The notes beneath the pieces are model-generated. The model worked only from the letters and a program-made list of their open reading frames with translations. It did no database searches and was not told where the DNA came from. From Planococcus plakortidis (lineage in GTDB: Bacteria; Bacillota; Bacilli; Bacillales_A; Planococcaceae): DNA of 64,000 bases. Position 1 is the first letter of the stretch. Every line of letters begins with the position of its first letter. A program made the position numbers and the translations under genes. Below, piece by piece: positions 1,713-19,948 of this stretch. The DNA lies in the NCBI RefSeq assembly GCF_001687605.2, contig NZ_CP016539.2, forward strand, positions 2,944,501 to 3,008,500, read 5' to 3'.

Positions 1713-2296
1713 TCAAAAGGACTCCACCAAATACCGATAAAGCTTCTGCTCCACCGAATTCTTCAACTTCATGTCCATCTGAACCACCGGGGTGTCCCGG
1801 TGGCTTTTGTCTTTCATGAGCGATTGTTGGATGGAGTGTTGATCGGGTGAGGCTTGGCCCAGGTAGTAGAAATCGCCGCCTTCATCGTGATTTTTTTTGA
1901 AGAAGATGTGGATGTCCATGCCGAGCTCTTCGGAGCGAATGATTTTTGGACTTCGTCCGATTGGAGTGTACGGTTGCTGCGGGTGAACCAATGCAGCGTT
2001 TCTTGGTTGATTAAATCATCTCCATAGGCAACGCTCGATTCGACTTCCTCGCTTTTATGGTAAGCCACTAAGATCGGACAGGTGCCGTGCTTTGGCTTGT
2101 ATCCGTAAATAGTCGAACTCTCGTCATTATCCCAGTTCAACAAGCGGCAGACGTCTTTGCGCTTGTATTTCCGGTGCAAGGTGAGTTCTTGCTGTTACTT
2201 ATAGCGCAATCTTTGCTGTCTCGCGGTAGCAAGCAGGTCTCCTACTGCATTTCGGAAGAAGCTGTTTTCCATTAGGCTGCTTTGGATTTGTTCAAT
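1713..2296 (-). pseudogene. Relic of a helicase C-terminal domain (DUF3427)
   Basis: Conceptual translation on the minus strand gives a DUF3427-type sequence: NSFFRNAVGDLL, HRKYKRKDVCRLLNW, STIYGYK, CPILVAYHKS, then GMDIHIFF, DFYYLG and a PVVQM...LKLKN ending. It is broken by an in-frame TAA near 2199 and by a frameshift near 1950. DUF3427 normally forms the C-terminus of large DEAD/DEAH helicases of mobile or defence regions; the helicase part is absent. The relic overlaps the 3' end of the neighbouring nuclease gene, so a deletion probably joined them. Confidence 0.75.
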
Positions 2297-3419
2297 GGAC
2301 TTCGGTGAATTCCAATTGCTTCGATGTAGGGTTGAAACGGTACTTTATAAGCCTCAACTTGGCCCATTTCTCAGTCTTGACCGGTCGGCTTCCTTTAGCG
2401 AAAATCCGTGTCCCCACTTCGTCCTTCAAGGAAACGACTTCAGTTGGGAAATCACTCGCTACTACAAAAGCCTCTATCATGGAATAATCCTTATACGCAT
2501 ATTCCTGATTAACCCAATCGACATATTTCATGACCTGGTGGATGACTTCCTTGTCAGCTATCCCTTTCTTCAATTCTATGACAAGGTATTTAGATATGGT
2601 CTTGTAGGGGAAAATACGACGGTAGCCGAAGATATCCATCTTATCCATATAATCGACCGGCTTGAATGGAGAAGCTACCACTTGATGCGATAGGTAGTCC
2701 CAATTACCGAATATGCCGCCAGGGTTCTTCTTGACATATTCAATCACCCCTGCTTCTATCGCCATTTCATGCTTGATTCTTTCCCCCATCGAAGCAAGAT
2801 CGAGTATATTGCCCGCACTCGCTTCGTAGCTTCCACCGACCAATCGACTGATCCGATCATGTAACTTCGGGGATTCCGTAAAAGTTTCCGATTCAATCCC
2901 CAACGCTCCTTCATTTGTTTTAAGTATGACATCGAAAAGGGCTGCGTCTTCCTTGTCATCTATCTTGATGAAAGACCTCTTCCACAATACCCTGAGCATC
3001 TTGAATGCTTCGGGATTTGACATGAGCACTTCGTCCATATCGATTCCGTGCTTGAAGAATGCGGGAGTTCCGCTGAATGTGCATAGAACCCTGTTATCAA
3101 GGTTGCGACTGGAGCCATCGAGTAGCATGCTACTCTTCACGTCCTTATATTTAGGTGCTTCCGGTGAGTCTGCTCCAGGAAAGTTCAGGTACTTGCAATC
3201 AAATCCGACGTTTCTCAATTTTCCGATTCCGAATATTTTTCTTTTGATGAAAAAGTAAACGTGGTCACCTTCCGACATGGAAAGGTAATCAGCGAAAGTT
3301 CCTTAGTGATGAGCTTTCCAATGGCCCGTGTTTATATTCAAATAGGTGCTGTAAAATCCATTGACAATCATTTCATGTAATGAATCCTCATTATTCAAGG
3401 TGAAAATGTATCCAGCCAT
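2292..3419 (-). pseudogene. PD-(D/E)XK nuclease gene split by an in-frame stop
   Basis: The natural start is the ATG at 3419, preceded by GGAAGGAAG. The frame runs 38 codons, meets TAA at 3305-3303 and continues in the same frame to 2292 (375 codons in total). The N-terminal about 95 residues, with a GTFADYLSM..GDHVYFFIKR segment, resemble a PUA/EVE-like small-molecule or modified-base reader fold. The C-terminal part holds MDIFGY...YLVIELKKG, the D and E-x-K of a PD-(D/E)XK nuclease. Translation could restart at the ATG at 3278, giving 328 residues that keep the nuclease half. It is divergent from vsr and next to a methyltransferase, which suggests a restriction role. The reader-fold assignment is tentative. 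Confidence 0.65.
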
Positions 3420-3563: not shown

Positions 3564-3995
3564 ATGCCGGACAAAATCTCCAAGGAAAAACGAAGCAAAA
3601 TAATGGGTTCGATAAGGGCTCAATCCAAGTTAGAGAATATCTTCAGTAAAGCGCTCTGGCATAAAGGCATTCGATTCCGCAAGAATGTCCGCAAACTGCG
3701 CGGCACACCGGACGTCGCCATAAAGAAATACAAGGTGGTCATTTTCGTCGATTCCTGCTTCTGGCATGGCTGTCCTCTCCATTACAAACGCCCGAAGAGC
3801 AACCAGGAATTCTGGGATGCGAAGATAGCGCGCAATAAGGAACGCGACCTAGAGGTAGATGCCCATTACACCGATCTGGGCTGGCACGTGCTCAGGGTCT
3901 GGGAGCATGACATACGCAAGAACCTGGATGAAACAGTCGATTCGACACTGGAATTCATCCAGGCAGCTATGAGAAGATATAAGGAGTCGGATTGA
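3564..3995 (+). CDS. vsr: Very short patch repair endonuclease Vsr
   Basis: A 143-residue protein of the usual Vsr length. It starts with the typical D-x-x-S-x-E-x-RS-x-x-M segment and carries GTPDVAI, the acidic catalytic site, FVDSCFWHGCP with the zinc-binding cysteines and histidine, and FWDAKIARNKERD. Vsr nicks beside the T of T:G mismatches that arise when 5-methylcytosine deaminates. The C5 methyltransferase 107 bases downstream on the same strand fits this partnership exactly. The ribosome binding site is weak. Confidence 0.9.
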   Translation: MPDKISKEKRSKIMGSIRAQSKLENIFSKALWHKGIRFRKNVRKLRGTPDVAIKKYKVVIFVDSCFWHGCPLHYKRPKSNQEFWDAKIARNKERDLEVDAHYTDLGWHVLRVWEHDIRKNLDETVDSTLEFIQAAMRRYKESD

Positions 3996-4045
3996 TGGAA
4001 TAACCGAAAGTTTTTATATAAAATTAAGGTTTTCACGGATATTTA

Positions 4046-4074
4046 TTGATCTTTCCCCGATAATTCGCTATAAT
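4046..4074 (+). promoter_or_regulatory. Sigma-A promoter for the methyltransferase gene
   Basis: TTGATC at 4046-4051 and TATAAT at 4069-4074 are separated by exactly 17 bases. The start point would fall near 4081, giving a leader of only about 22 bases that is almost entirely the inverted repeat at 4083-4100. Confidence 0.7.
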
Positions 4075-4082
4075 TAAGAAAA

Positions 4083-4100
4083 ACCGAAAGGATGTTCGGT
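4083..4100 (+). promoter_or_regulatory. Inverted repeat enclosing the methyltransferase ribosome binding site
   Basis: ACCGAA and TTCGGT form perfect 6-base arms around AGGATG, whose AGGA is the only ribosome binding site for the ATG at 4103. The hairpin, or a protein bound to it, would control translation or transcription start. A second ACCGAA copy lies near 4007. Confidence 0.5.
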
Positions 4101-4102
4101 AA

Positions 4103-5365
4103 ATGGAACAAACTAAGAAACTCAGGGTCATCGAACTCTTCGCCGGTGTCGGCGGCTTCCGCCTGGGGTTGCAGAAAGCCAACCACGAACTCTTCGAAGT
4201 GGTCTGGGGCAACCAATGGGAACCTTCACGGAAAGCCCAGGATGCCTTCGATTGCTATGCGCGCAATTTCGATACGGGAATCCATTCAAACGAGGATATC
4301 ACCAAGGTATCCGACGATACATTCCATGACCTCCGTGCCGACCTGCTTGTCGGAGGCTTCCCCTGCCAGGACTACTCGGTAGCCCGCAGCAAATCAGGGG
4401 AACAAGGGATTCAGGGGAAAAAAGGCGTCCTTTTCTGGGAAATCAAGCGGGTGATCGAGAACACACACCCCAAATATGTCCTGTTGGAGAACGTCGACCG
4501 CCTTCTGAAATCCCCTTCCTCCCAGAGAGGCAGGGACTTCGCGGTCATGCTGGCGACCTTCCGGGACTTGAACTATTCCGTCGAATGGCGGGTGATCAAT
4601 GCCGCCGAATACGGGATGGCTCAACGGCGTCGTCGGGTCTTCATCTTTGCATATAGAAACGGGATATCTTTCGATAATAACCAGAAAGTTTTCTCACCCG
4701 ATGACATAGTCTTCAATGAGGGATTCTTCGCCAAGCCTTTCCCAGTCGAGAAAGAGCCTTACAAAAATCGTATCTCCTCCGTCGAATTACCGTCGGATAT
4801 CGTGGAGATTTCAGACGAATTCTCATACGGATTCCACAACTCAGGATATATGCGTGAAGGCAAGGTCTTCACTGCCCATCTCTCACCTACATTGGAAGAA
4901 CCGATTCCGTTGAAGGATATTTTGATCGATGAAGAAGCGGTGCCCGAGAAGTTCTATCTCACCGATGCGAACAGCGAGAAATTCGCTTACTTGCGCGGCC
5001 CCAAGAAGATCGAACGCAAGACCGCCGATGGCCATGTCTATCACTTCTCCGAAGGCGGGATGTCTCCTACGGACGATTTGGATAAGCCGGGCCGTACCAT
5101 GTTGACTAGCGAAGGCTCCATCAACCGGAGCACACATATCGTTGAAGTGGATGGGAAGAAGCGCTTCTTGACCCCGGTCGAATGTGAAAGGCTTAATGGA
5201 TTCCCCGACAACTGGACCGCCGGCATGAACGATCGCATGCGGTACTTCTGCATGGGTAATGCCCTCGTGGTGGACTTGATAGAGCGCATGGGGATCCGTA
5301 TCGAAGAAATAGAAAAAGCTAATGAAGTGCATGGAATCCAAATGGAATTCCCAGTGTTCGGCTGA
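4103..5365 (+). CDS. DNA (cytosine-5)-methyltransferase, Sau3AI-type
   Basis: A 420-residue C5 methyltransferase with all main motifs: I (LFAGVGGFRLGL, residues 12-23), IV (GGFPCQDYS with catalytic C88), VI (ENVDRLL, about 129), VIII (QRRRRVFIF, about 174), a target-recognition region at about 200-330, IX and X (MGNALVVDLIERM near the end). It transfers a methyl group from S-adenosylmethionine to cytosine. The specificity is probably GATC, inferred from the MutH/Sau3AI-type endonuclease that follows. It lies between vsr and that endonuclease. A terminator overlaps its stop codon, so the endonuclease is expressed partly by read-through or separately. Confidence 0.93.
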   Translation: MEQTKKLRVIELFAGVGGFRLGLQKANHELFEVVWGNQWEPSRKAQDAFDCYARNFDTGIHSNEDITKVSDDTFHDLRADLLVGGFPCQDYSVARSKSGEQGIQGKKGVLFWEIKRVIENTHPKYVLLENVDRLLKSPSSQRGRDFAVMLATFRDLNYSVEWRVINAAEYGMAQRRRRVFIFAYRNGISFDNNQKVFSPDDIVFNEGFFAKPFPVEKEPYKNRISSVELPSDIVEISDEFSYGFHNSGYMREGKVFTAHLSPTLEEPIPLKDILIDEEAVPEKFYLTDANSEKFAYLRGPKKIERKTADGHVYHFSEGGMSPTDDLDKPGRTMLTSEGSINRSTHIVEVDGKKRFLTPVECERLNGFPDNWTAGMNDRMRYFCMGNALVVDLIERMGIRIEEIEKANEVHGIQMEFPVFG

Positions 5366-5390
5366 CATCATCATAGATGTCAGCTTTTTT
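5361..5390 (+). terminator. Terminator overlapping the methyltransferase stop codon
   Basis: Nine-base perfect stem GCTGACATC / GATGTCAGC, 6-base loop, then six T residues. It starts before the TGA at 5363-5365 and lies between the methyltransferase and its endonuclease, which would keep endonuclease expression below methyltransferase expression. Confidence 0.85.
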
Positions 5391-5430
5391 CATGTTAAAA
5401 TATAGGGAAATAAAAGAGTGGGGGAATTCC

Positions 5431-6807
5431 ATGAGGTTCGAGAGTGAAATTGAGTTATTATCTAGGGCTCAGGAAGCCGAAGGTATGAGCTTTTATGAAA
5501 TTGATAGAACGGGACGTATCGATAATGAGAAAGCCAAGGGGCATCTCGGCCAAATCATCGAAGAAAGTTTTTTCGGATACGAAGTCAATTCCAATGCAGA
5601 GGCTGATTTTGCAGAACTCGGTATTGAGTTGAAGGTTACTCCCGTCAAGGAGTTGAAAAATGGGCAACTAAGCGCCAAAGAGCGACTCGTTCTTAATATC
5701 ATCGACTTTCACAAAGAAGCACTCAATTCCTTCGAGGACTCAAGTTTTTGGAGAAAGAACGAATCCCTCCTTCTAATGTTTTATAAATGGCTTCCCGATA
5801 TTCCAAGAGGCAACTACAGGATATTGAAATCCCATTTGCACAGATTTTCAGAATCCGACCTTCAAGTAATCCGGAATGACTGGTCGATAATCGTTGCCAA
5901 GATAAAGGCAGGACAAGCGCACCTCATTTCGGAAGGCGACACTGCATACCTCGGTGCATGCACCAAGGGGGCCAACCGAAAATCCATTCGGACCCAGCCA
6001 TTCAGTCCCGAACCAGCCATGCAGCGCGCTTTTTCTTTGAAGGCGTCATATATGACAACACTTATCCGTGAATTGATTACAGCTGAACATCTTGTTCCCA
6101 TCGCGGAGCCCGACGAATTGCAGCAGAAAAGTCTTGGCCAATTGTTGTCAGATCGGTTCAAGAAATATGAAGGAATGGCTGTTGAAGATATCGCCAAGGA
6201 AGCTGACGCCCCACTGAATACAAAATCCAAATCTTTCCTACCGCTGTTCGTCAGTTCACTCCTGGGGGTCAAAGGGACTTCTCTGGAAGATATAGAGGAA
6301 TTCTCCAAGGCCAACATCAAATTCAAGACCGTTAGGCTAGAGCCGGACGGGAAACCGAAGGAACATATGTCGTTCCATACTATCAACTTCCAGGAATGGA
6401 TAAATGAAGAATGGGAAACTTCTTTGTTACGCACTATGTTCGAAGAAACGAAATATCTATTGGTTGTATTCGGATACCAAGAGACGTTACGCGAAAACCC
6501 TGACAGGAACCTCTATTTTAAAGGTGTTCACCTCTGGAACATGCCCATGGAGGAAATCGAGGGTAGGCTGAAAGATTTTTGGTTGGAAGGACGAGCCATT
6601 CTCGAAGAAGGAGTTCTTTTGAAGAAGACCAATAGGGGAATCTCGAACAATCTTCCAGGCCCGCAAAGTAACGGACTTTGTCATGTCAGACCTAGAGCGC
6701 GTAATGCTGGTGACCGAATTATCTTGCCTGATGGACAGCCTATAACGAAACAAGCATTTTGGATTGATCGGGAATATATAGGGGAAATAACAAAGAAACT
6801 TAAATGA
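5431..6807 (+). CDS. Sau3AI/MutH-family type II restriction endonuclease
   Basis: I take the ATG at 5431, which follows GAGTGGGGG, rather than the earlier in-frame ATG at 5377, which lies inside the terminator stem. The 458-residue product has the MutH-type catalytic site: GHLGQIIEESFFG, then D59, E66 and K68 in ADFAELGIELKV, the same D-x6-E-x-K spacing as MutH. The length matches Sau3AI, which has an N-terminal active domain and a C-terminal MutH-like allosteric domain. The C-terminus here (LVVFGYQE, LYFKGVHLW, RNAGDRIILPDG) fits that second domain. It should cut GATC, with the upstream methyltransferase protecting the host. Confidence 0.88.
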   Translation: MRFESEIELLSRAQEAEGMSFYEIDRTGRIDNEKAKGHLGQIIEESFFGYEVNSNAEADFAELGIELKVTPVKELKNGQLSAKERLVLNIIDFHKEALNSFEDSSFWRKNESLLLMFYKWLPDIPRGNYRILKSHLHRFSESDLQVIRNDWSIIVAKIKAGQAHLISEGDTAYLGACTKGANRKSIRTQPFSPEPAMQRAFSLKASYMTTLIRELITAEHLVPIAEPDELQQKSLGQLLSDRFKKYEGMAVEDIAKEADAPLNTKSKSFLPLFVSSLLGVKGTSLEDIEEFSKANIKFKTVRLEPDGKPKEHMSFHTINFQEWINEEWETSLLRTMFEETKYLLVVFGYQETLRENPDRNLYFKGVHLWNMPMEEIEGRLKDFWLEGRAILEEGVLLKKTNRGISNNLPGPQSNGLCHVRPRARNAGDRIILPDGQPITKQAFWIDREYIGEITKKLK

Positions 6808-6821
6808 ATTTACAGAAATGG

Positions 6822-6863
6822 GGAAAGGGAAGCTGAAATGAATTCATTTCAGCTTCCCTTTCC
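6822..6863. terminator. Bidirectional terminator, 21-bp arms with no loop
   Basis: A perfect 42-base palindrome centred on GAATTC lies between the convergent endonuclease gene (ends 6807) and helicase gene (ends 6879). As RNA it would fold into a very long hairpin on either strand. There is no clear T-run, so termination strength is uncertain. Confidence 0.65.
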
Positions 6864-6878
6864 TCTTCCTACAGCAAC

Positions 6879-8303
6879 TTACTTTCTTTTTAACTTGTAA
6901 TCTTCAGGATTCAATTCATCCAGATAACGACTTCTCTTATCTCCATAGGTCGTCATCACCAATTGATGTTTGGCTCGTGTCATGGACACATACAATAATC
7001 TCCTGTCTGACTGGGCCGCTTCTTCTACATCTTCCTTATCCATTTCTTTGGTCAAATACGGCAAGTTCCCTTCTGTAAGTCTTACAATGAAGACTACATC
7101 GAATTCCAACCCCTTAGCTGAATGCATCGTTACCAATTTAATTCCGGGCTTTAAAGAATTCCCATCATCTTTATTGATTATTTCAACAGGCAGATTCGGG
7201 GGCAATACCCTTTTCAACGCATAAAGGCTCTTTACATTACGCACTAATATCCCGATGGTTATATCCCGCTTACTGCTTCGCCAAATTTCATTGACGGAGG
7301 CTGCAACCCCCTGGAATTCCGCTGTTGTATCCTTATAGACGTGAAGCTCGGGAGGAATACCGCTTTCCCTTGTCGGCATAAGCAATTCTTCTTTGTCATC
7401 GGCCTGTTTATTACTTCCAATTGAAAGATTCTTTTTATAAAGGGGCTGGGCTAGCTTCACAACCTCTACGCACGAACGGTGCATTTCCTCCAATGACTTC
7501 GTCCGTCCTCCCACCACGTTTATACCTACGCTTTTCCAGGTGAAGTCTGTCTTGTATATCTTCTGCCCCATGTCAGCTGAAACAACCAGACTTTTCGGAT
7601 TCAATTTCCTTAATAGTGAAAGCTCCGATTGATTAAGGTCCTGGGCTTCGTCAATCAAGATAAAGTCATATTTAAAGTTAGAAGGTATCTCATCAATTCT
7701 GCCGGAAAGGATGTTGGCATAATCATCGAACGGAATGATTCCCTTCTTAGCCAGTAGTGAATCGAAGGCTTCCAGGAATCGATAGACTTCTTTCCGATCC
7801 TCTTGACTCAACCGAGCATTCCGCCCACTTCTTTTTACTTGCTTGTAGTCTTCCAAGTTGTCTATACCTTGACCTTTTATCCACTGAACCTCCTCTTCAA
7901 GGAATTTCTTGAATTTATCCTCTTTATAGAATCTATGCTTGGAAACCTTTTTTCTTTGTGAATAGATTTCTTCAAAGGCTTCGTCTACAGTTTTCGGCGA
8001 GGAATTGGGCTTCCGACCATTCATTTTCAAAAGAAGACGCCATCCCCACCCATGGAATGTGGAAATCGTGATTCCTTCCGTAGCTTCACCCTTTGATTCA
8101 AAGAAGTCTTTCACATATTTGGTGAGCGTCTTATTGTAAGTGATCATAAGGATTTTCGCTTCAGGATTCGTCTTCATCAATTTCAATAATTTATAGAGCA
8201 AGACTGTGGTTTTGCCACTACCGGGAGCGCCTTTTATGAGTATATGTTCCGCCTCGAAATCGATTGCATCGTTCTGCACCTTGGTCATTATCATTTTCAC
8301 CAT
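6879..8303 (-). CDS. UvrD/Rep-like superfamily 1 DNA helicase
   Basis: A 474-residue SF1A helicase with a full motif set: Q-motif region (TKVQNDAI), Walker A GAPGSGKTT, Ia (MITYNKTL), FHGWG, Walker B LIDEAQDL, III (VVSADMGQKIY), V (LVTMHSAKGLEFDVVFIV) and VI (LLYVSMTRAKHQ). It is shorter than UvrD (about 720) because the 1B/2B accessory domains are reduced. The start is GTG at 8303, preceded by AAAGGGGATG. It is the last gene of a four-gene operon, 18 bases after the small protein gene. No nuclease domain is fused to it. Confidence 0.85.
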   Translation of the reverse strand: MVKMIMTKVQNDAIDFEAEHILIKGAPGSGKTTVLLYKLLKLMKTNPEAKILMITYNKTLTKYVKDFFESKGEATEGITISTFHGWGWRLLLKMNGRKPNSSPKTVDEAFEEIYSQRKKVSKHRFYKEDKFKKFLEEEVQWIKGQGIDNLEDYKQVKRSGRNARLSQEDRKEVYRFLEAFDSLLAKKGIIPFDDYANILSGRIDEIPSNFKYDFILIDEAQDLNQSELSLLRKLNPKSLVVSADMGQKIYKTDFTWKSVGINVVGGRTKSLEEMHRSCVEVVKLAQPLYKKNLSIGSNKQADDKEELLMPTRESGIPPELHVYKDTTAEFQGVAASVNEIWRSSKRDITIGILVRNVKSLYALKRVLPPNLPVEIINKDDGNSLKPGIKLVTMHSAKGLEFDVVFIVRLTEGNLPYLTKEMDKEDVEEAAQSDRRLLYVSMTRAKHQLVMTTYGDKRSRYLDELNPEDYKLKRK

Positions 8304-8321
8304 TCAAATTCATCCCCTTTC

Positions 8322-8510
8322 CTAAAACCAATCATCATCCATCAAGTCATCGAATTTCTGCTTCTCTCTATCCATTTCTTGACTTTTTAATTTGGAGATG
8401 TCATATTTCTGTCCTTCATTTTCCAAAACCGATAAATGGGCAATTACCCATCCATCAAGCAGCTTTTGCCTTAATTCGTTACCGGCTGGGGGTTTAATTT
8501 TATCTCCCAT
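8322..8510 (-). CDS. Small hypothetical protein of the helicase operon
   Basis: A 62-residue charged protein starting at the ATG at 8510, preceded by GGAGGGGG; a longer GTG start at 8534 is possible. Its start overlaps the end of the AddB-like gene by 11 bases, and its stop lies 18 bases before the helicase start, so translation is coupled. It has a central helix with GWVIAHL and a highly charged end (EKQKFDDLMDDDWF). The family is unknown; it could be a small accessory or regulatory subunit. Confidence 0.65.
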   Translation of the reverse strand: MGDKIKPPAGNELRQKLLDGWVIAHLSVLENEGQKYDISKLKSQEMDREKQKFDDLMDDDWF

Positions 8511-11109
8511 CTTTTGGATAGACCCCCTCCGCACAGATGTTCAGATGAGGACAGAACCTGCAGTTATATCCCGGTGATGCTATAGAGCCTTTCTGTTCAC
8601 TTGTATCGTCATTCTCTTTTGACATACCTAGGAGACGCGACGTCCTTACGACAGTCGCATACTGATAGTCTTCTACTTCATAATATTTAATTTTATATCG
8701 ACGATTCTTTTTTTTCATGTTTTGCTTTTTGACGAACTTTTTATACTCACTGCTATATTGCGGGAAAAGAGCTTCGATTGAATTATATGCATTCTCCCAA
8801 TCCCCAAAAACATTGTGAGCTTCCCACAAAAGACCTGAAAAGATATTTCTCTGATGGAAATCTTCTTGGAATGAGCTATAGTCATTTAAGATATAACTGA
8901 AGATGGCTCTTTTTTTACATAGTTTCCATTCTTCCTCCATCATTTCGCTCCAATTGGAAAAATCCATGCTTGGTGCAACAGCTTCAGTCAGGTTTGCTTT
9001 GTGTTTGTCTGCCTTAACGGATGTAGTCTCCCCCTCTAATCCTATCATCTTGAAATAAGCAGCCAACCTTAAACCAGTTTCTTCATTCAAATCTTCGACA
9101 AAACTTATCCTCACATTATCGGCTGAAGAAAACATAGCGTAGAGGAGATATCTATTCATACTTCCTGCAAAGCGCGAATGTACCCTAAAGAGGCCCAATT
9201 CAGGTCGGTGCTTAGTGAGCCTTTCTTCCGTCTTCGAACTTAGTGGCCAAAGTTTATATTTCACGATACTCGGCAGGGATTTATGATCAGCAAAAGCCAA
9301 ATGTATATCACGATTCGACTTGAACGGGATACCATCCCCTAGATATAGTCCTCCTAGCCGGTCAATCTTTTCACTCTCATCATCTTTTTCACTGGGAAGC
9401 CCGGATGTCAGGAAATAACGTAGCCCTTGGCTGATGTCCGATACTCTGAAGGTCAATTCATCTTCAGTAAGTTCATCCATCTGTTTAAGCAGTCCATGAA
9501 TCACTTCTTTTTCCTCTCGTATTATTTCAGCATCAAGCGGCGCTTCAGTATACTTCTTCAACTTCTTGATATACCCGGTGATGTTCAATTCCGATTGGCT
9601 TCCAAACAGGTCTTCGCTCATCTCTTTCACCGCCAAGAAACCTTTCTTGATTATATATAAATCCTCGATTCCCAATTTGAAATATGATAGCTGTTCAAAA
9701 GGTTTGGAATGAAGACGGTGCACCCTTGAATCTGGAATCCCCTCCTGACTCCAGGACAATTTCTCTTCGATGATTTCATCGATTTTAACGATCCATTCTT
9801 CGATGGTCGGCTCGTTTTTTTCTTTCCCTTGAATATATCCGTCTCCAAGAGAGAAATAAGGCAGCAACATTTCCAGTTCTTTCAGATATGATTTCATATT
9901 GATTGTCTGGCCATTTTCCGGATTCTTATAGACAAGGTAGCCACTCGAGAAGAGAGTTTTCATGGATTCAGGGGTCACCGCTTCATAGTAACGGCTCTCC
10001 CCATCTTCCGGATTCTTCTTCTCGTGGATAATGCCATGGAGTGTAAACAGAAACCTGCCTATCGGATATTCCAAAAGGCTATGGTTCTTCTTCACGAGAA
10101 GGTCCGAATAATAGAGTTGTTCACGCGCCTGTCCTCCCCTAGATGTGACCACATGCTCGAATGGCTTATCGGATGCCTCCCTCCTACTCTTTTCCTTTCG
10201 GATGAATTCCGTTAAATCAGTGAAACGGTGGACAGTGACATCTTTTTTTCTCGCTGAGACTTCCTCTCCTTCAAAACCGAGTAGCAAGGAAGCTGCCAAT
10301 GGATGGATTCTATAGCCAGGTTCGTTAAAGGAAGGCTGCCATGTCCACTTACCTTTCTGAAGAAATTCTTCTACAATACGAAAAGTTGCTGGATAATCTT
10401 CATTATATAAGTTTAAAAAAACCAATTCATACTTCTCTTCAAGTATTTTAAAGAGATATTCCTGTATAGGAGTGATGAAATAGAATCCATGTAAAATCAA
10501 TTTTTTCTTCTGTAGGCTTTTCACGACGCTTCTATCGGATTGGAAGGCTTCATCGAAAATGTTATGCTTCTCCAATTCACTCGGTGTACCCATATCTTTG
10601 AATATGTCAACGAGCACTTTCTCGAAAGCCCCCTCCTTCTTCAATAACACCGCTTCCCAATCCCGCAATTCAAACTGATCTTTCACCTTTCCCCATAGCT
10701 TAACCAATAACTCTTCCTCTTCTGTTCCACTTTCAATTGAATCCATCAGCCTTAATTCACATAAAATCCTTAAAGTATAGATTATTTCCTTTCTATTCTT
10801 CTTAAAGGAAAATATCAATTTCCTCTCACTTGTAGAAACTGATTCTCCCCACAGCTCTTCTAAAGCGGAAGAGACTGCCAGGAACTGCTTCATCTGCGCT
10901 CTTGGGGAACTCCACCCCTTTCCGAATATCCCTTCCAATACACTTCCGATAGTGACAATCGGTGCTTTTATCCACCAGCACCCTTCAGATAAAGATTCGA
11001 GTAAAGTGGGAGTGGCCACGATATGCATGACATCAGCATACTCCTTCTGGAAAACGGACTCCTTCCAGGTAAGGTCTCCCGGCACCCTATAGGTCAATAC
11101 CTGCCTCAT
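8500..11109 (-). CDS. AddB-like protein with Fe-S cysteines, nuclease core absent
   Basis: An 869-residue protein. The segment around residues 190-240 (LILHGFYFITPIQEYLFKIL) resembles the inactive helicase core of AddB/RexB. The C-terminus has one cysteine at about 731 in LCKKRAIFSYIL, matching the first Fe-S cysteine of AddB and Cas4, and C850-x2-C853-x5-C859. In AddB the PD-(D/E)XK core lies between these; here the interval is short and I see no D...DYK-type site. It overlaps the AddA-like gene by 4 bases (ATGA). It likely forms a heterodimer with that protein and contacts DNA ends through the Fe-S domain. The assignment rests on these motifs and on gene order. Confidence 0.7.
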   Translation of the reverse strand: MRQVLTYRVPGDLTWKESVFQKEYADVMHIVATPTLLESLSEGCWWIKAPIVTIGSVLEGIFGKGWSSPRAQMKQFLAVSSALEELWGESVSTSERKLIFSFKKNRKEIIYTLRILCELRLMDSIESGTEEEELLVKLWGKVKDQFELRDWEAVLLKKEGAFEKVLVDIFKDMGTPSELEKHNIFDEAFQSDRSVVKSLQKKKLILHGFYFITPIQEYLFKILEEKYELVFLNLYNEDYPATFRIVEEFLQKGKWTWQPSFNEPGYRIHPLAASLLLGFEGEEVSARKKDVTVHRFTDLTEFIRKEKSRREASDKPFEHVVTSRGGQAREQLYYSDLLVKKNHSLLEYPIGRFLFTLHGIIHEKKNPEDGESRYYEAVTPESMKTLFSSGYLVYKNPENGQTINMKSYLKELEMLLPYFSLGDGYIQGKEKNEPTIEEWIVKIDEIIEEKLSWSQEGIPDSRVHRLHSKPFEQLSYFKLGIEDLYIIKKGFLAVKEMSEDLFGSQSELNITGYIKKLKKYTEAPLDAEIIREEKEVIHGLLKQMDELTEDELTFRVSDISQGLRYFLTSGLPSEKDDESEKIDRLGGLYLGDGIPFKSNRDIHLAFADHKSLPSIVKYKLWPLSSKTEERLTKHRPELGLFRVHSRFAGSMNRYLLYAMFSSADNVRISFVEDLNEETGLRLAAYFKMIGLEGETTSVKADKHKANLTEAVAPSMDFSNWSEMMEEEWKLCKKRAIFSYILNDYSSFQEDFHQRNIFSGLLWEAHNVFGDWENAYNSIEALFPQYSSEYKKFVKKQNMKKKNRRYKIKYYEVEDYQYATVVRTSRLLGMSKENDDTSEQKGSIASPGYNCRFCPHLNICAEGVYPKDGR

Positions 11110-14100
11110 CTTCCATCACTCCTTTCAAGCAAATCTGCCCAGCATAGGCTTTTCTTCCTGGTAGCCGGTAAGATGACGGAAAGTTTCTTTTCGGCTCTCG
11201 TCATAGCTACATACAGGAGTCGTGCTTCTTCCCTTACTGTCTCAGTGACCTCCAATTGATCAGCTGACTCGAATTCATCAGTAAGCAATGGTTCGGTAAC
11301 GCCTGGCCAGTTATACTTCAAGGTCACCTTCGGTTCATCGCTCTGTTCCCCATCATGGATTATCACCTTATTCTTCTGGTCATTACTCTTGATGAATGGG
11401 AGACCTGTATATGGAAGTAAAACAGTATGGAATTCCAGCCCCTTTGCTTTGTGTACGGTCATGACACGGATGATGTCCTTATCCAAGTTTTCCATAATAT
11501 CAGCTTCATCGGTGTTCCGGTTAGTCGCCACTTGTATCTTCAACCATTCATATAGAAGCTGTATATCATCAGCAGCCTGCCCTAGTGTCTTATGAGCCTC
11601 CGAAAGGAGTTTCGAAAGGTTTTTCCTATATCTTATGATTTCATGGCTCTGTTCAACCCCCTTGAGATTCCCTTCAATCTCTACCTTCATCAATATGCCG
11701 TATAGGACTTTCATCGCCGGTTCGAAACGCAACTCCCGCTGAGCATCGAAAACCCAATCCGCAGCTACAGCACGGAAAAACTGTTGGATCGCTTCGAGCA
11801 ACTTTTCCTTATCGCCCTCCAGAGATACAAGCTGGGTCAAGTCGAAGTCTCCCGCAATAAAGGGAGTCTGAAGCAAAGCGAAATACCCTTCCGGATTATC
11901 CTCTAGCCTTAAAGCATTAATTAGAATCAATACATCTTTAGCACTTTTTGAAGCGAATAAATTACCATCAACTGACAGTTCATAAGCGATTGACTCGCCC
12001 GACCCTTCTTTCAATCTCATTTTTTCCAGAACTCTCCCGATTTCCTTGACCTGCCAATTTTCTCTGACCAGAATCGCCAAAGATCGGTTATCTCCTCTTT
12101 CTCTGAGTTCATGCCCTTCCCACAAATCTCGATACAGGCTTTCGATATGTTCTTCAAGGAATGCATTTAGCTTCCGATGCTTCACTCGATGTATAGGGGC
12201 CGTTTTTGAGGACGCCTTCTTTTTATAAGGAGTCAGCCTTCCTATGTTCCGGCCTTTCGAATCGACTTCCTGTGGAAGATATCGCTCCTCTCCGTTACGC
12301 CATGAATCGAAAATATCTTCCATCCAATCCAAGAGATGACCATCGGTTCTATAATTTGTATTCAGTGCAAATGAAGATGTATCTATATTAGCTTTGCCCA
12401 ATTTATCCTCGAGCACCCGAAATGCAGTCGAATTGGCCCCTCTGAATCTGTAAATGGACTGTTTGATGTCACCTACAGCAAATAACCGGGCACCCAGCTT
12501 CTCAACAATCGTAGAGACCAAGTCGATTTGTGCATCATCCGTATCTTGGAATTCATCGACGAAAAGGTATTTGATAGGGTGGTTCAACCTACCCGGCTCA
12601 AGGTTATCCCGCAGTTCGCCGACTTTCCTCTTCAAGTCTGCCAGCGTGGCTTCGTTCGACTCCAGTTTCTTTGTCTCCATTCTCTTGTAAGTATCGGGTA
12701 TCACCGATTTTGCCGTGCGGACAAGTGTGTCCAATCGTAAATTATTCTGTGATACGTCCCATTGCAAGTAAGGCTTCCCTAAGGAGTGGCCTTTCTTCTC
12801 TATTTCTTCGTAAATCTGTGCGAGGAATTTGAAGAGATCGTAATCTTTCAACTCCAGGAGATGGTTGTAATCCTTCTCGTTACATCCATTTAGAAATCTT
12901 GAAAATTCTTCCCGGAAAATCTCCTCTCTCTTGTATATATAAGAGGTCACTTTCACATCTTGTCCCCAACCATCTATAGACCCGACGCTTTGGAATAGAT
13001 ACCTAGAGAAGGCATCGATAGTCATTATCCTCATCTCCATTGCCCGCTCAAGCCAAGTGAGGTATTTATCGTCCTTAGTGCTGCGAAAACGTATCTCCAG
13101 CGCTTCCATTATTTTCTTCCTCATATTGTCAGCAGCTTCCCTTGTAAAGGTAATCATCACTATATCTTCCGGATTGATTGAATCATCCGTATTCAGAAGA
13201 AACATGATTCGCGATACCATTGTAGTCGTCTTTCCACTTCCTGCTCCAGCATTCACTATCAAATGATTATTTAGAGGAGCGTGCTCTATGATATATTGTT
13301 GATGATTGAAAGTGCTAGTCATCCCAAGATGCTCGAGTCGGTTATAAGTTCCTGTCTCGAAAACTCCGTCAATTATAATCACTTGCTCCGGTATCACTGC
13401 AAGAACGTGCATGTTCAGCGAAGGATGCTCGATTCCCAGTTCTTCTTCACATAGAAGATGGACAGTTATCCCTTTCGCAAGAAGAGAGACAATATCATAC
13501 CTGCTTTTGAACATCTCAAGCTCACCTGCAAAGAGCAGTGAATGTCTGATGTCCCACTCCGCCGAGTCACCAGCTGGATTATGCACAGGTATGTCCGGCA
13601 CAACATATTTCGGAGGGTCTATCGGAGCGGAATATTTATAGGGATTCTCCGATATCATCACTTGTGCGATATGTCGAGCAGCTTCATGGCTATATAATTC
13701 TATGCTTCTACCGCTTTTTAATTCGATTCTTTGTGTGGAGACGTAATCATTATATAGTGGAAAATAATAGTCCTCGAAACCCGACTGGATTGTTTTCATC
13801 CGGTTTGCATTCTTCAACTTTTCATCTATATCCAATTTCCCGCCAGCGAACAGCTGGATTCCCATCGTTGTTCCGTGATTCCGTACGATGATGTCCATCT
13901 TTCCGTATAAATCCAACTCTTCGTCTAGGATGACGTCTTCAAACAACCCCGATTCTTTCAACACCAAGAAAAAATGAAGATCTCTGACTAACCCTAGATA
14001 ACCTTTGAATGCGGCGTATCTGAGAAACTCCCTTTTCGCTAAAGAACTATTGCGCTTGTCTAAGGAATAATCAGCATAGTAATCCATGAATTCGCTTACA

Positions 14101-14303
14101 GAAGGCAGCCTTTCAAGTTCAGTAATTTGCCTATGCAATCTTGTCACCAGAATTGGTACACCATTTGTAGCGAAATCATGTTTTTCAATTGATAGTATCT
14201 TCAATTCCTCAGGATTTTCGATATAGGTCTCCGCCAACACCTTTTCGATGTTGCTCGAAGAACCTAAATTTTTTTCGTAACTTTTCATATTTACCATAAT
14301 CAA
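11106..14303 (-). CDS. AddA-like UvrD-family helicase with novel N-terminal extension
   Basis: A 1,065-residue protein. Residues 1 to about 335 form an extension; within it DLYGKMDIIV...GIQLF (about 131-152) looks like a PD-(D/E)XK-type core in which the E-x-K position reads Q-L-F. The helicase follows: Walker A NAGAGSGKTTT (351-361), MITFTREAA, MTIDAFSRYL, Walker B FVDEFQDTDD (about 581-590), GDIKQSIYRFRGA, MTVHKAKGLEFHTVLLPY and LLYVAMTRAEKKL at the end. Unlike AddA (about 1,230 residues) there is no C-terminal nuclease. It is the first gene of the operon. The start could be any of three closely spaced methionines. Confidence 0.85.
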   Translation of the reverse strand: MIMVNMKSYEKNLGSSSNIEKVLAETYIENPEELKILSIEKHDFATNGVPILVTRLHRQITELERLPSVSEFMDYYADYSLDKRNSSLAKREFLRYAAFKGYLGLVRDLHFFLVLKESGLFEDVILDEELDLYGKMDIIVRNHGTTMGIQLFAGGKLDIDEKLKNANRMKTIQSGFEDYYFPLYNDYVSTQRIELKSGRSIELYSHEAARHIAQVMISENPYKYSAPIDPPKYVVPDIPVHNPAGDSAEWDIRHSLLFAGELEMFKSRYDIVSLLAKGITVHLLCEEELGIEHPSLNMHVLAVIPEQVIIIDGVFETGTYNRLEHLGMTSTFNHQQYIIEHAPLNNHLIVNAGAGSGKTTTMVSRIMFLLNTDDSINPEDIVMITFTREAADNMRKKIMEALEIRFRSTKDDKYLTWLERAMEMRIMTIDAFSRYLFQSVGSIDGWGQDVKVTSYIYKREEIFREEFSRFLNGCNEKDYNHLLELKDYDLFKFLAQIYEEIEKKGHSLGKPYLQWDVSQNNLRLDTLVRTAKSVIPDTYKRMETKKLESNEATLADLKRKVGELRDNLEPGRLNHPIKYLFVDEFQDTDDAQIDLVSTIVEKLGARLFAVGDIKQSIYRFRGANSTAFRVLEDKLGKANIDTSSFALNTNYRTDGHLLDWMEDIFDSWRNGEERYLPQEVDSKGRNIGRLTPYKKKASSKTAPIHRVKHRKLNAFLEEHIESLYRDLWEGHELRERGDNRSLAILVRENWQVKEIGRVLEKMRLKEGSGESIAYELSVDGNLFASKSAKDVLILINALRLEDNPEGYFALLQTPFIAGDFDLTQLVSLEGDKEKLLEAIQQFFRAVAADWVFDAQRELRFEPAMKVLYGILMKVEIEGNLKGVEQSHEIIRYRKNLSKLLSEAHKTLGQAADDIQLLYEWLKIQVATNRNTDEADIMENLDKDIIRVMTVHKAKGLEFHTVLLPYTGLPFIKSNDQKNKVIIHDGEQSDEPKVTLKYNWPGVTEPLLTDEFESADQLEVTETVREEARLLYVAMTRAEKKLSVILPATRKKSLCWADLLERSDGR

Positions 14304-14398
14304 AGTCTCCTTTTATTCTTTAGTCTGTTCGTCTATGAGACCTTGTTGAACATTAATTCCTATATACTGTAATAAACTAGTATAATATTTCCACTTAC

Positions 14399-14420
14399 AC
14401 TATACTACACAAGGTATAGT
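14399..14420. promoter_or_regulatory. Operator-like inverted repeat upstream of the helicase operon
   Basis: ACTATAC and GTATAGT form perfect 7-base arms separated by 8 bases, about 100 bases before the first gene of the minus-strand operon. The surrounding sequence is AT-rich with several TATA-like hexamers, so the promoter probably lies here, but I cannot fix a single -35/-10 pair. Confidence 0.4.
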
Positions 14421-14499
14421 TATGTTAACCTACGAAGTAATTATGCTATGTTTTTGATAAACGCATATTTAAACAATCTTATGATTTTTGTTCATAATT

Positions 14500-15144: not shown

Positions 15145-15546
15145 ATGTTTAACACTTACAGACAAATCCAGACAACCTTCTCCCAAATTAATTATCATTT
15201 TGCCTTTTGTCCCCGATACAGAAAAAAGATTTTTCTTCAGGAAAATGTAGAGAAACGATTCGAGTTTCTAACGAATGAAATATGTAGAGAATTGGATATC
15301 GATGTCGTTACCTTAGAATGCAATCAAGATTACACCTATATGGTTCTGAATGCTCCGCCCACCTTAAGTCCCGCCGAAATAATGGCAAAGATTAAAGGAA
15401 AAACATCAAGAATATTGAGAGAGGAGTTTTCACATCTCAACCATCTCCCCAGTCTTTGGACACGTTCCTATTTTGTTTCCACCTCAGAAAGCGTATCGAG
15501 TGAAATGATTAAACGTTACGTTGAACTCCAAAAAACCAGGGGGTGA
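15145..15546 (+). CDS. tnpA: TnpA-type Y1 transposase lacking the HUH histidines
   Basis: A 133-residue IS200/IS605 transposase by HFAFCPRYRKKIF, APPTLSPAEIM, LWTRSYFVST and IKRYVELQ, which contains the likely catalytic tyrosine Y125. The metal-binding HUH motif, normally D-H-V-H-L in this position, reads D-Y-T-Y-M here: both histidines are tyrosines (Y63 and Y65), each a single C-to-T change in its codon. Metal-dependent strand cleavage should fail, so the element is probably not self-mobile. The tnpB start overlaps the end of this gene. Confidence 0.85.
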   Translation: MFNTYRQIQTTFSQINYHFAFCPRYRKKIFLQENVEKRFEFLTNEICRELDIDVVTLECNQDYTYMVLNAPPTLSPAEIMAKIKGKTSRILREEFSHLNHLPSLWTRSYFVSTSESVSSEMIKRYVELQKTRG

Positions 15547-15551
15547 AACCC

Positions 15552-16631
15552 ATGAGTCAGATTATTACGGTTAAGGTGAAATTGCTTCCAACTAAGGAAC
15601 AGCAACGTATCCTCAGTCAAATGAGCCGAGATTATATCTCTGTCATCAACCAGCTGGTTAATGAAATGGTGGTCGAGAGAAGAAAAACAAAAAAAACTTC
15701 AAAACACGTGATATCGAACCTTCCAAGTACCGTTAAAAGTCAAGCCATTCAAGATGCAAAAAGTATCTTCGTCATGAAGGTTATGAAAAGTAAATATTCG
15801 ATTATTCCTTTTCTCAAAAAGCCCCTCTGCGTATGGAATAATCAAAATTATTCTTTCGATTTCACCCACATTTATTTGCCATTGATGATTGATGGAAAAG
15901 CAAAAAAAGTACCTGTCCGCGCGTTACTAGTCGACAAAAACAACCGGAACTTCGAGTTGTTGAACCACAAATTAGGCACACTCCGGATCAATCAAAAGTC
16001 AGGAAAATGGATTGCTCAAATCGCTGTCACTATTCAAACGATGGAAAAGACCGGAACTAAAATTATGGGGATTGATTTAGGCTTGAAAATCCCCGCTGTC
16101 GCTATTACCGACGACAACAATGTTCGTTTTTTTGGTAATGGAAGAATGAACAAATTTGTCAAACGAAAATTCCAAACTAAACGAAAAAAACTTAGCCAGA
16201 AGAAAAAGCTAAATGCTGTTCGCTATCTTCGGGATAAAGAACAACGCTGGATGAAAGATCAAGACCATAAGGTTAGTCGTGCTATTGTAAATTTTGCAAA
16301 GCAACAGAAAGTTTCTGTCATCCGCTTAGAAAAACTAGCGAATATTCGACAGACGGCAAGAACAAGCCGTAAAAACGCAAAGAATCTGCACACTTGGTCC
16401 TTCTATCGGCTTTCTCAATTCATCGAATACAAAGCAAATTTAGAAGGCATTAAAGTAGAATATGTGAACCCTGCTCATACGAGTCAACTTTGCCCAGCTT
16501 GTGCTGAAAAGAACAAAGCAAAAGGCCGGAGGTATCTATGCAAGTGTGGATTCGAAAAACATAGAGATCTTGTAGGTGCGATGAACATTAGATACGCACC
16601 TGTGGTTGATGGTAAAAGTCAATCAGCCTAA
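15552..16631 (+). CDS. tnpB: TnpB RNA-guided nuclease
   Basis: A 359-residue TnpB from the ATG at 15552 (AGGGGGTGAAACCC before it). The N-terminal helical and WED/REC-like part precedes a split RuvC domain: D175 in GIDLGLKIPAVAI, E260 in VIRLEKL, a zinc ribbon with C314, C317, C330 and C332, and D339 in HRDLVGAMNI. All three catalytic acids are kept. TnpB cuts DNA guided by an RNA made from the element right end, and favours retention of the element. It overlaps or abuts tnpA, suggesting coupled translation. Confidence 0.9.
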   Translation: MSQIITVKVKLLPTKEQQRILSQMSRDYISVINQLVNEMVVERRKTKKTSKHVISNLPSTVKSQAIQDAKSIFVMKVMKSKYSIIPFLKKPLCVWNNQNYSFDFTHIYLPLMIDGKAKKVPVRALLVDKNNRNFELLNHKLGTLRINQKSGKWIAQIAVTIQTMEKTGTKIMGIDLGLKIPAVAITDDNNVRFFGNGRMNKFVKRKFQTKRKKLSQKKKLNAVRYLRDKEQRWMKDQDHKVSRAIVNFAKQQKVSVIRLEKLANIRQTARTSRKNAKNLHTWSFYRLSQFIEYKANLEGIKVEYVNPAHTSQLCPACAEKNKAKGRRYLCKCGFEKHRDLVGAMNIRYAPVVDGKSQSA

Positions 16632-16845: not shown

Positions 16846-16960
16846 TTTCCTTTATTCCCTTTAGATTAAAGCAAGAATATACCTTTAAACTATTAAGGAC
16901 ATTTCATGATTTAACTAATTGAAATGAATACTTATGTAACTTAAAATTTGAAAAAGACTT

Positions 16961-17052: not shown

Positions 17053-18036
17053 ATGGAAAATGTGTTTGATTATGAGGACATTCAGTTAGTTCCTGCAAAA
17101 GCAGTGGTAAATAGCCGTTCAGAATGTGATACATCCATAGAGTTTGGCGGGCGCACGTTTAAATTACCGGTCGTGCCGGCCAATATGCAGACAATCGTCG
17201 ATGAAAAGATCGCCAAATTCCTGGCAGAAAATAATTACTTCTATATCATGCACCGCTTCGAACCGGAAAAGCGATTGGCGTTCGCGAAAGACATGCAAGA
17301 GCAAGGGCTGTATGCGTCGATCAGCGTCGGGGTCAAACCGGAAGAGTATGACTTCGTCCAGCAGCTAGTGGACGCTGGCATCACGCCGGAATACATCACG
17401 ATCGATGTGGCACACGGCCATTCGAATTCCGTCATCGATATGATCGGGCACATCAAAAAATCGTTGCCAGGCAGCTTCGTCATCGCTGGCAACGTCGGGA
17501 CGCCGGAAGCGGTGCGCGAGCTTGAAAATGCGGGTGCAGATGCGACCAAAGTGGGCATCGGGCCAGGCAAGGTGTGCATCACGAAGATCAAGACCGGCTT
17601 TGGTACAGGCGGCTGGCAATTGGCCGCACTTCGCCTTTGCGCGAAAGCTGCCAGTAAACCGATCATCGCAGACGGCGGCATCCGCACGCACGGCGATATC
17701 GCGAAATCGGTGCGTTTCGGCGCGTCGATGGTCATGATCGGCTCATTGTTCGCAGGCCACGAAGAATCTCCTGGGCAAACCGTCGAACAGGACGGCAAGC
17801 TCCTGAAGGAATACTTCGGTTCAGCGTCCGAGTTCCAAAAAGGCGAGAAGAAAAACGTCGAAGGCAAGAAAATGTTTGTGGAATTCAAAGGCTCAATGAA
17901 AGATACGTTAGTCGAGATGGAACAGGATCTGCAGTCGGCGATTTCCTATGCGGGCGGCGACCATTTGCTATCGATCCGCCAAGTGGATTACGTCATCGTC
18001 AAGAACTCGATTTTTAACGGCGATAAAGTTTATTAA
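17053..18036 (+). CDS. guaC: GMP reductase
   Basis: A 327-residue enzyme that converts GMP to IMP with NADPH, returning guanine nucleotides to the common purine precursor. It shows the IMPDH/GMPR barrel: DIQLVP near the start, [36 protein letters not shown] with the catalytic cysteine, [13 protein letters not shown] and [12 protein letters not shown]. There is no CBS pair, which excludes IMP dehydrogenase. The start has TAGGGGTG upstream. It is a single-gene unit with its own promoter and PurBoxes and marks the return to host-like composition. Confidence 0.96.
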
Positions 18037-18188
18037 TCGAGTAGATCGAATCCCAGCAGCAAGATTTCCGCAATAAAAAACCAACCATTGCGGCTAGCAA
18101 GGTCAGTTGAACAGCTCCATATTTTCCAAACAGCATCGAAATTAGAATAGGGTTCGCACCTGGATTCCAACGTGAACCCGCATACATC

Positions 18189-18225
18189 AAAAGCTCAGCC
18201 TTTTTTAAGGTACTGAGCTTTTTTT
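18189..18225 (+). terminator. Rho-independent terminator
   Basis: AAAAGCTCAG / CTGAGCTTTT stem with a 14-base loop and a T-run, about 150 bases after guaC. The interval 18037-18188 shows no gene. Confidence 0.8.
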
Positions 18226-18280
18226 AGTTTGGGCAACTAATCACCGATTGCAGCGCCAATCACTCTCACAGCTTCTGTTG

Positions 18281-19039
18281 TCAGATGATCAATCCGCTAT
18301 ACACCATTCCGATATTTATGACGAAGTGAAAAATGATGCTCGGGTAGATGCTGTTTGTTTTCAATGTGATTACCGCGTAGATGACGCCGGCGAGCGCAAT
18401 CACCAAGCTGAGAAGCATAGGAAAACCGATGGCGAGATGGAGAAGCCCAAACCCAATGCTCGTAACGGCAACGGCATAGCCGGTCGAGACGAGCTCCTGG
18501 AGAGCCGAAAGCATGATCCCCCGCCAAATGATTTCCTCGAACACCGCATTGGTCAGGGAAAAGACCAAACAAAACACCAGCAGCGATTGGATGGACTCGA
18601 GGTCTTGTCGGGCGATGAAAAATGAGTATACGATTCCATTCACGGCAATCCCGATCAGCCAAAACCAAAATACATTCACATGATGAAACGGCAGACGGAT
18701 CGGATTTGTCCAATCCGGTTTTCTATTGTACCAAACTAACTTCTTCTTAAATAACAGATGATTGAAACCGATGCCGATGAGGATAAAACCTAGAAACAAG
18801 CGGTTAAGGATAATCTTCAGTTCTTTTGAGATGGACATCGTTTCAACAAAACCATTGGCAATTATAAATACCGCAAAGCCGATGAGAAACGACAACAACA
18901 GCGAGATAAGGAACCGGTTTTTGTTATTGATGAATAACCAAATCACAAATCCGGTTAATATAAAAAGGGAAAGAACTTCCATCTGATAGGAAATAGCTGC
19001 AATTCCTAAGAAAAACAATATCGCGATTGCCATTACCAA
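18281..19039 (-). CDS. CPBP-family intramembrane metalloprotease
   Basis: A 252-residue, strongly hydrophobic protein with about seven or eight membrane segments. The ABI/CPBP motifs are present: EEIIWR (EExxxR), FGLLH (FxxxH) and the histidine in FHFVINI near the C-terminus. These glutamate and histidine residues form the in-membrane active site. Bacterial members act in immunity to peptide toxins or in prenyl/CAAX-like processing; the substrate here is unknown. The start is TTG at 19039 because AAAGGAGG lies 8 bases upstream, while the nearest ATG is 14 bases away. Confidence 0.85.
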   Translation of the reverse strand: MVMAIAILFFLGIAAISYQMEVLSLFILTGFVIWLFINNKNRFLISLLLSFLIGFAVFIIANGFVETMSISKELKIILNRLFLGFILIGIGFNHLLFKKKLVWYNRKPDWTNPIRLPFHHVNVFWFWLIGIAVNGIVYSFFIARQDLESIQSLLVFCLVFSLTNAVFEEIIWRGIMLSALQELVSTGYAVAVTSIGFGLLHLAIGFPMLLSLVIALAGVIYAVITLKTNSIYPSIIFHFVINIGMVYSGLII

Positions 19040-19126
19040 AAACAGCGCCTCCTTTCCCTACGAACCAACACCCATCTTGCCGTGTAGTGTTTTCATCATG
19101 TCCTGCTATGTAGAACAGTAACTAGC

Positions 19127-19166
19127 AACAGGCAGGCTAGCTGCACTTCGACCTAGCCTGCCTGTT
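19127..19166. terminator. Intergenic hairpin, possible terminator
   Basis: Perfect 14-base arms AACAGGCAGGCTAG and its complement with a 12-base loop, between two minus-strand genes. No strong T-run follows on the minus strand, so the terminator role is uncertain. Confidence 0.5.
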
Positions 19167-19230
19167 TGCTTGTACCGATTTTCAAATTAAACGCTTCAAG
19201 GATCTGAAATACTTGTTCTGATCGTTGGTA

Positions 19231-19677: not shown

Positions 19678-19708
19678 AACTATGCCTCTTTCTGCTTATG
19701 CTGATGTC

Positions 19709-19937: not shown

Positions 19938-19948
19938 TCCAGTTACTC

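Follow-up and report, generated by a model that had tools for sequence, protein, structure and literature searches.

The common picture of type II restriction is that of a self-sufficient enzyme pair, the products of which are cleared by the host RecBCD or AddAB machinery. Helicase-like proteins are also found in the restriction systems CglI and NgoAVII, the methyltransferases (MTases) of which are of the m5C type. These systems are reported to combine an MTase and a restriction endonuclease (REase) with a helicase-like ATPase (PMC4267653, PMC5737866). Helicases stand in a defence context in Hna, in Gabija (GajB) and in the PADLOC entry C3a187, and Hna is reported to be stimulated by an SSB of phage origin (PMC13381803). 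RecBCD is itself known to be a target of phage inhibitors (PMC9836394).

The locus described here lies in a stretch of 64,000 nucleotides of the Planococcus plakortidis genome, referred to below as the window. It comprises four minus-strand ORFs in tandem (A, B, C and D), all present, beside a restriction-modification (R-M) set on the plus strand:

3564 to 3995, plus strand: Vsr mismatch endonuclease (Pfam Vsr, 1.3e-22)
3618 to 14496: block common to the window and P. maitriensis, holding most of vsr, MTase, REase, D, C, B and A
4103 to 5365, plus strand: partner C5-cytosine DNA MTase (Pfam DNA_methylase, 2e-71)
5377 to 6807, plus strand: partner REase with a MutH/Sau3AI-type domain (Pfam MutH, 2.7e-38)
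6822 to 6863: 42-bp stretch between D and the REase gene, where a relative's sequence matched in both orientations
6879 to 8303, minus strand: D, small SF1 (UvrD-type) helicase of 474 aa (Pfam UvrD_C, 2.7e-25; UvrD-helicase, 2.6e-24)
8322 to 8510, minus strand: C, protein of 62 aa with an acidic, SSB-tail-like C-terminal tip (FDDLMDDDWF)
8500 to 11109, minus strand: B, AddB/RecC-like subunit of 869 aa (AF2 and Foldseek, 21-row alignment, motif counts)
11106 to 14297, minus strand: A, ~1063-aa helicase (SF1, AddA/RecB/UvrD type; Pfam UvrD-helicase, 2.9e-41; UvrD_C, 1.3e-22)
13311 to 14297, minus strand: N-terminal domain of A, a Q-type extension of about 330 aa (AF2 model, Foldseek, eight-row alignment)

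An earlier note on this DNA had described four genes linked by overlaps of 4 and 11 bases and lying next to an R-M set, and both points were borne out. The A–B overlap is 4 bases (A ends at 11106, B starts at 11109) and the B–C overlap 11 bases (B ends at 8500, the ATG of C is at 8510), while 18 bases separate the C stop at 8322 from the D ATG at 8303; the MTase, the MutH-type REase and Vsr were each recognized by Pfam. Translation of A probably starts at the ATG at 14297, which has AAAGGAG upstream and is favoured over the TTG at 14303. The adjoining MTase and REase genes are a predicted type II R-M system, for which cognate specificity is predicted, and the stretch at 6822–6863 is a probable bidirectional terminator shared by the D and REase genes.

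The assignment of A and D to the SF1 helicases was confirmed by Pfam UvrD domains in both. The SF1 P-loop pattern was found in 25 of 28 A rows (the three misses being cut pieces) and in 22 of 22 D rows. A fails the addA equivalog model TIGR02785 (141.2 bits, cut-off 707.65), and its chain ends 27–41 aa past helicase motif VI in 23 of 28 rows, those where the motif pattern matched; in the near-identical copy L011, 28 aa remain. This leaves no room for the C-terminal AddA/RecB nuclease, indicating that A lacks it. D scored 16.2 bits against the recD model TIGR01447 (cut-off 310.15) and is thus UvrD-type, not RecD; its top PADLOC profile was C3a187 (NERD+UvrD, 2.7e-39), with GajB also matched.

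Three main forms of A were distinguished, one without an N-terminal extension (~820–860 aa), one with a NERD-type extension and the Q-type of the window. Pfam NERD was matched in four of the five NERD-type rows tested but not in L023, the extension of which is longer. In an eight-row alignment, the window-type domain has D135 and Q148-x-F/Y (F150 in the window) where NERD-type rows show D...ExK. Its AF2 model (pLDDT 73.8) gave leading Foldseek matches that were mostly PD-(D/E)XK enzymes, including the R.BspD6I small subunit and Hjc resolvases, both of which we take to have the PD-(D/E)XK fold; the best E was 0.015 with a query TM of ~0.2, and none of 367 matches reached E ≤ 0.001. A family name for the domain was dropped because the fold match was too weak. 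The window-type domain is possibly PD-(D/E)XK-like and, to judge from this weak fold match and the motif reading, probably a degenerate, catalytically dead nuclease. It was found in A proteins only, in 4 of 261 genomes of the order.

B gave no significant profile match in Pfam (best 0.45), NCBIfam (none) or PADLOC (best 0.0067). Its AF2 model, built on the 21-row alignment (pLDDT 79.3), matched AddB (3u44_B, E 1.4e-13, TMq 0.44) and RecC (8b1t_C, E 2.4e-10) in Foldseek. Across the 21 rows, the C-terminal part holds four invariant Fe-S-type cysteines (C731, C850, C853 and C859) together with R734, F782, P783 and P854, and no invariant D, E or K and no conserved nuclease residue was seen there. 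The pattern CxxCx(4-7)C, a predicted Fe-S staple, stands at the B terminus in 27 of 27 rows, and the SF1 P-loop in none of the 27, a looser pattern giving three scattered matches. From the Foldseek matches, the unconserved nuclease residues, the missing P-loop and the cysteine staple, we take B to have the AddB fold in a derived, RecC-like form, which upholds the earlier view of an AddB-like protein without a nuclease. Some B proteins (L018, L019) run on past the Fe-S-type cysteines with a C-terminal extension, which in L018 was without a match in a Pfam scan.

No significant match to C was found in Pfam, NCBIfam or PADLOC. Counterparts of C were chosen by hand from ORFs in the gaps between B and D. 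Among the 11 distinct modules whose D has ~470 aa, this gap contains a divergent small ORF (59–97 aa) in 10, L022 having none. Six of the 10 C proteins have an acidic C-terminal tip that finishes hydrophobic, a feature seen in 1 of 218 neighbouring proteins and 0 of 70 A, B and D proteins; the C of the window ends in MDDDWF and the host SSB in SDDDLPF. Three further C proteins fail the strict tail test, and one, the C of L012/L020, is basic, lacking both the acidic tail and a second motif, [FI]W-x(5-7)-W. This FW motif lies near the start of 8 of 10 C proteins, that of the window not among them (background 3 of 269 proteins, possibly including two C proteins left in). The D proteins of L022 and L033, among seven larger D relatives of 552–588 aa (termed D'), begin with the same motif, which suggests a docking element common to C and D'. 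C and D are missing from 9 of 25 modules (no D match in the stretch examined) and C from 5 more that carry D' only, so that A–B is the constant core. In Exiguobacterium (L031, 12734–18298; L009, 11671–17265), A–B is followed instead of C–D by an unknown protein of 663–681 aa, a HerA-like ATPase and an HNH protein.

Compared with AddAB of the Bacillus subtilis type, the module shares an SF1 motor (A) and a partner with a predicted AddB fold and a CxxCx5C Fe-S-type staple, but it has no nuclease signatures, B has no SF1 P-loop, a new N-terminal domain on A, the helicase D and the small C are added, and the whole is accessory and linked to R-M. Compared with RecBCD, B is like RecC in lacking both P-loop and nuclease signature, and the presence of two motors, A and D, is reminiscent of RecB and RecD; however, D is UvrD-type, the RecB nuclease is absent and C has no RecBCD counterpart. 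With no nuclease signature, no P-loop in B and no RecD, the module lies outside both systems, and it may resemble part of AddAB/RecBCD in action yet belong to neither. The host was expected to have its own AddAB, and this was found elsewhere in the genome, with AddA (TIGR02785, 1347.5 bits, cut-off 707.65) and AddB (TIGR02773, 994.9 bits, cut-off 903.7) both passing their equivalog cut-offs. The operon as the only AddAB of the genome is thereby ruled out, and the proposal that the genome has a further, differently arranged AddAB-like set is supported.

As had been anticipated, Pfam, NCBIfam and PADLOC searches of the proteins gave no match to a named system. CglI and NgoAVII likewise encode MTase, REase and helicase together, but their single helicase-like ATPase is of the DEAD family whereas the set here is SF1 and AddAB-like, and the REase family of the module is also found without the module. 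The GajA/OLD partner is absent here, and the match of D to Gabija and C3a187 is to the generic UvrD core; membership of either was rejected, with no OLD-type gene nearby and the single OLD-TOPRIM match of the genome at 661235, the module being at 2.95 Mb. We know of no B-like subunit in Hna, Gabija or C3a187. No Hna profile was among the PADLOC matches listed (the top 25 for A, the top 25 for D and one for B). No AddAB-like or RecBCD-like defence of such a layout appeared in the titles and abstract openings searched, most subscription journals being outside their scope, and AddB and UvrD occur 0 times in the main text of DefensePredictor as available.

Recurrent neighbours of the module were C5-MTases, REases and Vsr. 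The neighbour scan covered 123 of 177 proteins of at least 150 aa (54 were excluded by hand as far, cut, near-duplicate or scanned already) and, within the commonest 25 of 136 families, held 21 C5-MTases and 9 MutH-type REases as well as AlwI, BpuJI, HaeIII and EcoRII types. A single conserved REase partner was rejected, since REase families vary between modules. Of the 20 genomes that could be scored, 18 had a C5-MTase no more than 10 kb from the module (16 read directly in the window or loci, 2 by coordinates; the window and the near-identical P. maitriensis copy both included), against ~0.3 expected: 0.275 with MTase fragments merged (G054, G660, G661, G674) and ~0.32 with full match counts. 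In total 22 genomes were counted, L029 and L030 being dropped for contigs shorter than 15 kb; taken as misses, they would lower the figure to 18 of 22. In the two scored genomes without a C5-MTase inside 10 kb, one lies at 12 and 19 kb, respectively, the first in L031, where contig identity comes from coordinates only.

As a control, 46 Planococcus genomes gave 30 strong type I N6_Mtase matches. Sixteen of these were in genomes that also have a strong C5-MTase match, and 0 of the 16 lay within 10 kb of one, distances being compared by eye and limited by draft contigs. Two Planococcus type I N6_Mtase genes, ~19 kb (G079 C9) and ~27 kb (G120 C4) from a C5-MTase and with no module there, indicate that looser defence-island clustering exists. 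Within the 22 genomes, strong type I N6_Mtase matches (0 of 12) and OLD-TOPRIM (0 of 9) were not within 10 kb of a C5-MTase, distances again being compared by eye, a weak control because only three of each were on a contig with one. The REase family of the window was found in 47 of 261 genomes of the order, including all six carriers of A–B (hypergeometric 2.6e-5, uncorrected for kinship); A–B is absent from the other 41, and in three R-M loci inspected (L109–L111) MTase and REase are present and A, B and D absent. Members of the Vsr family adjoined 8 of 23 loci. The R-M genes appear to be partnered with the module and to be more than its surroundings, a point absent from the earlier note.

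Relatives of A and B of PDC-M33ABC, a PADLOC candidate with proteins unrelated to those of the module, adjoin it in 7 of 23 loci (L011 at 17282–20000, L014, L018, L020, L021, L030 and L032), with M33C in five; identity by PADLOC profile was established in L020 only. This points to a tie between m5C R-M and PDC-M33 as well; no paper on 'PDC-M33' was found in a literature scope that left out most subscription journals. Close to the R-M set of the window, at 2292–3278 on the minus strand, a 328-aa ORF without a Pfam match has a C-terminal part resembling a PD-(D/E)XK nuclease (VIELKKG).

The module is rare yet recurrent in Bacillota. Searches for B gave 6 carriers among 261 genomes of the order and 5 among 398 of the phylum (the host genome included in each case; two of the latter weak), two plasmids, and at least 19 genome_contigs loci, a lower bound because that search used one 8-residue pattern. 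A phage origin was rejected, B having no match in the phages collection and no confirmed relative in viral_contigs. B followed A in 25 of 25 loci and the order A-B-C-D was seen again in divergent loci, so that the four genes do recur together, as the earlier note had considered, and their grouping is more than chance. A tree of 25 B proteins separated a Q-type group (10 rows, 100/100) from a NERD-type group (5 rows, 100/100), two rows with a cut A being left untyped, indicating that B and the N-terminal type of A go together. In L026 (1–14284) and L034 (1–14202), two modules stand in tandem, one A being NERD-type and the other without an N terminus (L026) or with a cut-off one (L034). In L017 (1266–6631), two tandem helicases with MrfA Zn-binding (MZB) domains lie directly upstream of A.

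The window and P. maitriensis are 98.3% identical over 10,880 bp, from inside vsr to just upstream of A, whereas identity in the right flank (IS element, guaC and beyond) is 88–92%, showing that the R-M genes and A–D moved as a unit. They were transferred jointly with little else in the block, and this, with the type II m5C R-M linkage, strengthens the defence context of the module. To the left of the block the two sequences do not align; P. maitriensis has PDC-M33 genes there, and no match to these was found in the window or in the 20 kb to its left.

We put at roughly 0.4 the probability that the module is a nuclease-poor unwinding complex of the AddAB/RecBCD type, accessory to m5C R-M and acting on restriction-cut DNA. 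A and B would form an AddAB/RecBCD-type heterodimer with A as motor and B as an inactive RecC-like scaffold carrying the Fe-S staple, which D would join as a second motor, probably via C. Once the partner endonuclease has cut unmodified incoming DNA, the complex would load on the ends and unwind them, and host ssDNA nucleases, for which the acidic SSB-like tail of C is a plausible recruiter, would finish the destruction. Host nucleases would be needed because nuclease activity within the module would be slight or absent (NERD in one clade, an apparent pseudonuclease in that of the window). Such restriction-coupled unwinding is favoured by the proximity of C5-MTases set against the type I control, the single transferred block, the shared REase family of all A–B carriers, the resemblance of the predicted B to AddB and RecC, the separate host AddAB, the B phylogeny that follows the N-terminal type of A, and the tails of C. 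On the other side, the absence of C from so many modules means that recruitment by C would not be universal, the C protein of L012/L020 is basic and tailless, three more fail the tail test and the window C lacks the FW motif (FW-x6-W); the dead state of the N-terminal domain of A leans on a weak match. The type of REase changes from locus to locus, which leaves no one enzyme contact in common, and most genomes with the REase family do without A–B.

The linkage could also stem from shared mobility, given the type I genes 19–27 kb from C5-MTases. A system of antiphage helicases that acts independently of R-M and only shares its islands, comparable to Hna, Gabija or Druantia, is a possible but doubtful reading; the trigger might be phage replication intermediates or phage SSB, with the tail of C as an internal SSB mimic. 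It accords with the accessory and in part plasmid-borne nature of the module, the swappable N-terminal domains (NERD included), the PDC-M33 neighbours and the stimulation of Hna by phage SSB, but the m5C preference is hard to explain by islands alone. R-M cassettes can damage hosts that lose methylation, and it is conceivable, if unlikely, that the module mends breaks which the partner REase inflicts on host DNA while methylation falls behind, by resection without degradation. The kinship of B with AddAB/RecBCD and the loss of nuclease signatures from B and of the C-terminal nuclease from A would fit this, but the host already has AddAB and the REase family is mostly found without the module. 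A further idea is that the module is an ATP-dependent translocase part of the REase, required for cleavage as in CglI and NgoAVII: despite the similar gene content of those systems, MTase and REase stand without A, B or D in L109–L111, REase families vary here and the helicases are SF1, not DEAD-family, and we consider it very unlikely. Least probable of all is an accessory to mismatch or very-short-patch repair, in which the helicases and Vsr would process T:G pairs from deaminated 5mC. In E. coli, UvrD acts after MutH cuts, and Vsr is near some of the loci; however, no Vsr was found in 15 of 23, and an AddB-like architecture suits ends over nicks.

Restriction-coupled unwinding also has a bolder, rather unlikely form, in which the module would be a third end-processing machine beside AddAB and RecBCD, two-motor, nuclease-free and dedicated to type II restriction, with C as an SSB-tail mimic that calls host nucleases, and would destroy cut phage DNA even with the host AddAB disabled by phage. 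The bypass of AddAB and the SSB-tail idea are made reasonable by the phage inhibitors of RecBCD and the phage SSB stimulation of Hna. If true, some R-M systems would carry their own dedicated, co-transferred clean-up helicase complex, there would be a reason for nuclease loss in an AddAB lineage, and a test case would be at hand for bacterial bypass of phage RecBCD/AddAB inhibitors. The module is small, and relatives with R-M only are natural controls.

The adjoining mobile genes had been described as relics. That label is not supported for the IS200/IS605-type element at 15145–16631, as it retains both the Y1 transposase and TnpB with a Cas12f1-like TNB domain. No clean empty site was obtained at guaC, the site being variable among L104–L108, which align with the window from 16950–16957 on; further left, ~580 bp align in L106 and L107 only. 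Farther along the window, at 29592–32636 on the minus strand, lies a gene for a 1014-aa secreted protein which, by reading of its sequence, is subtilase-like with cell-wall-binding repeats.
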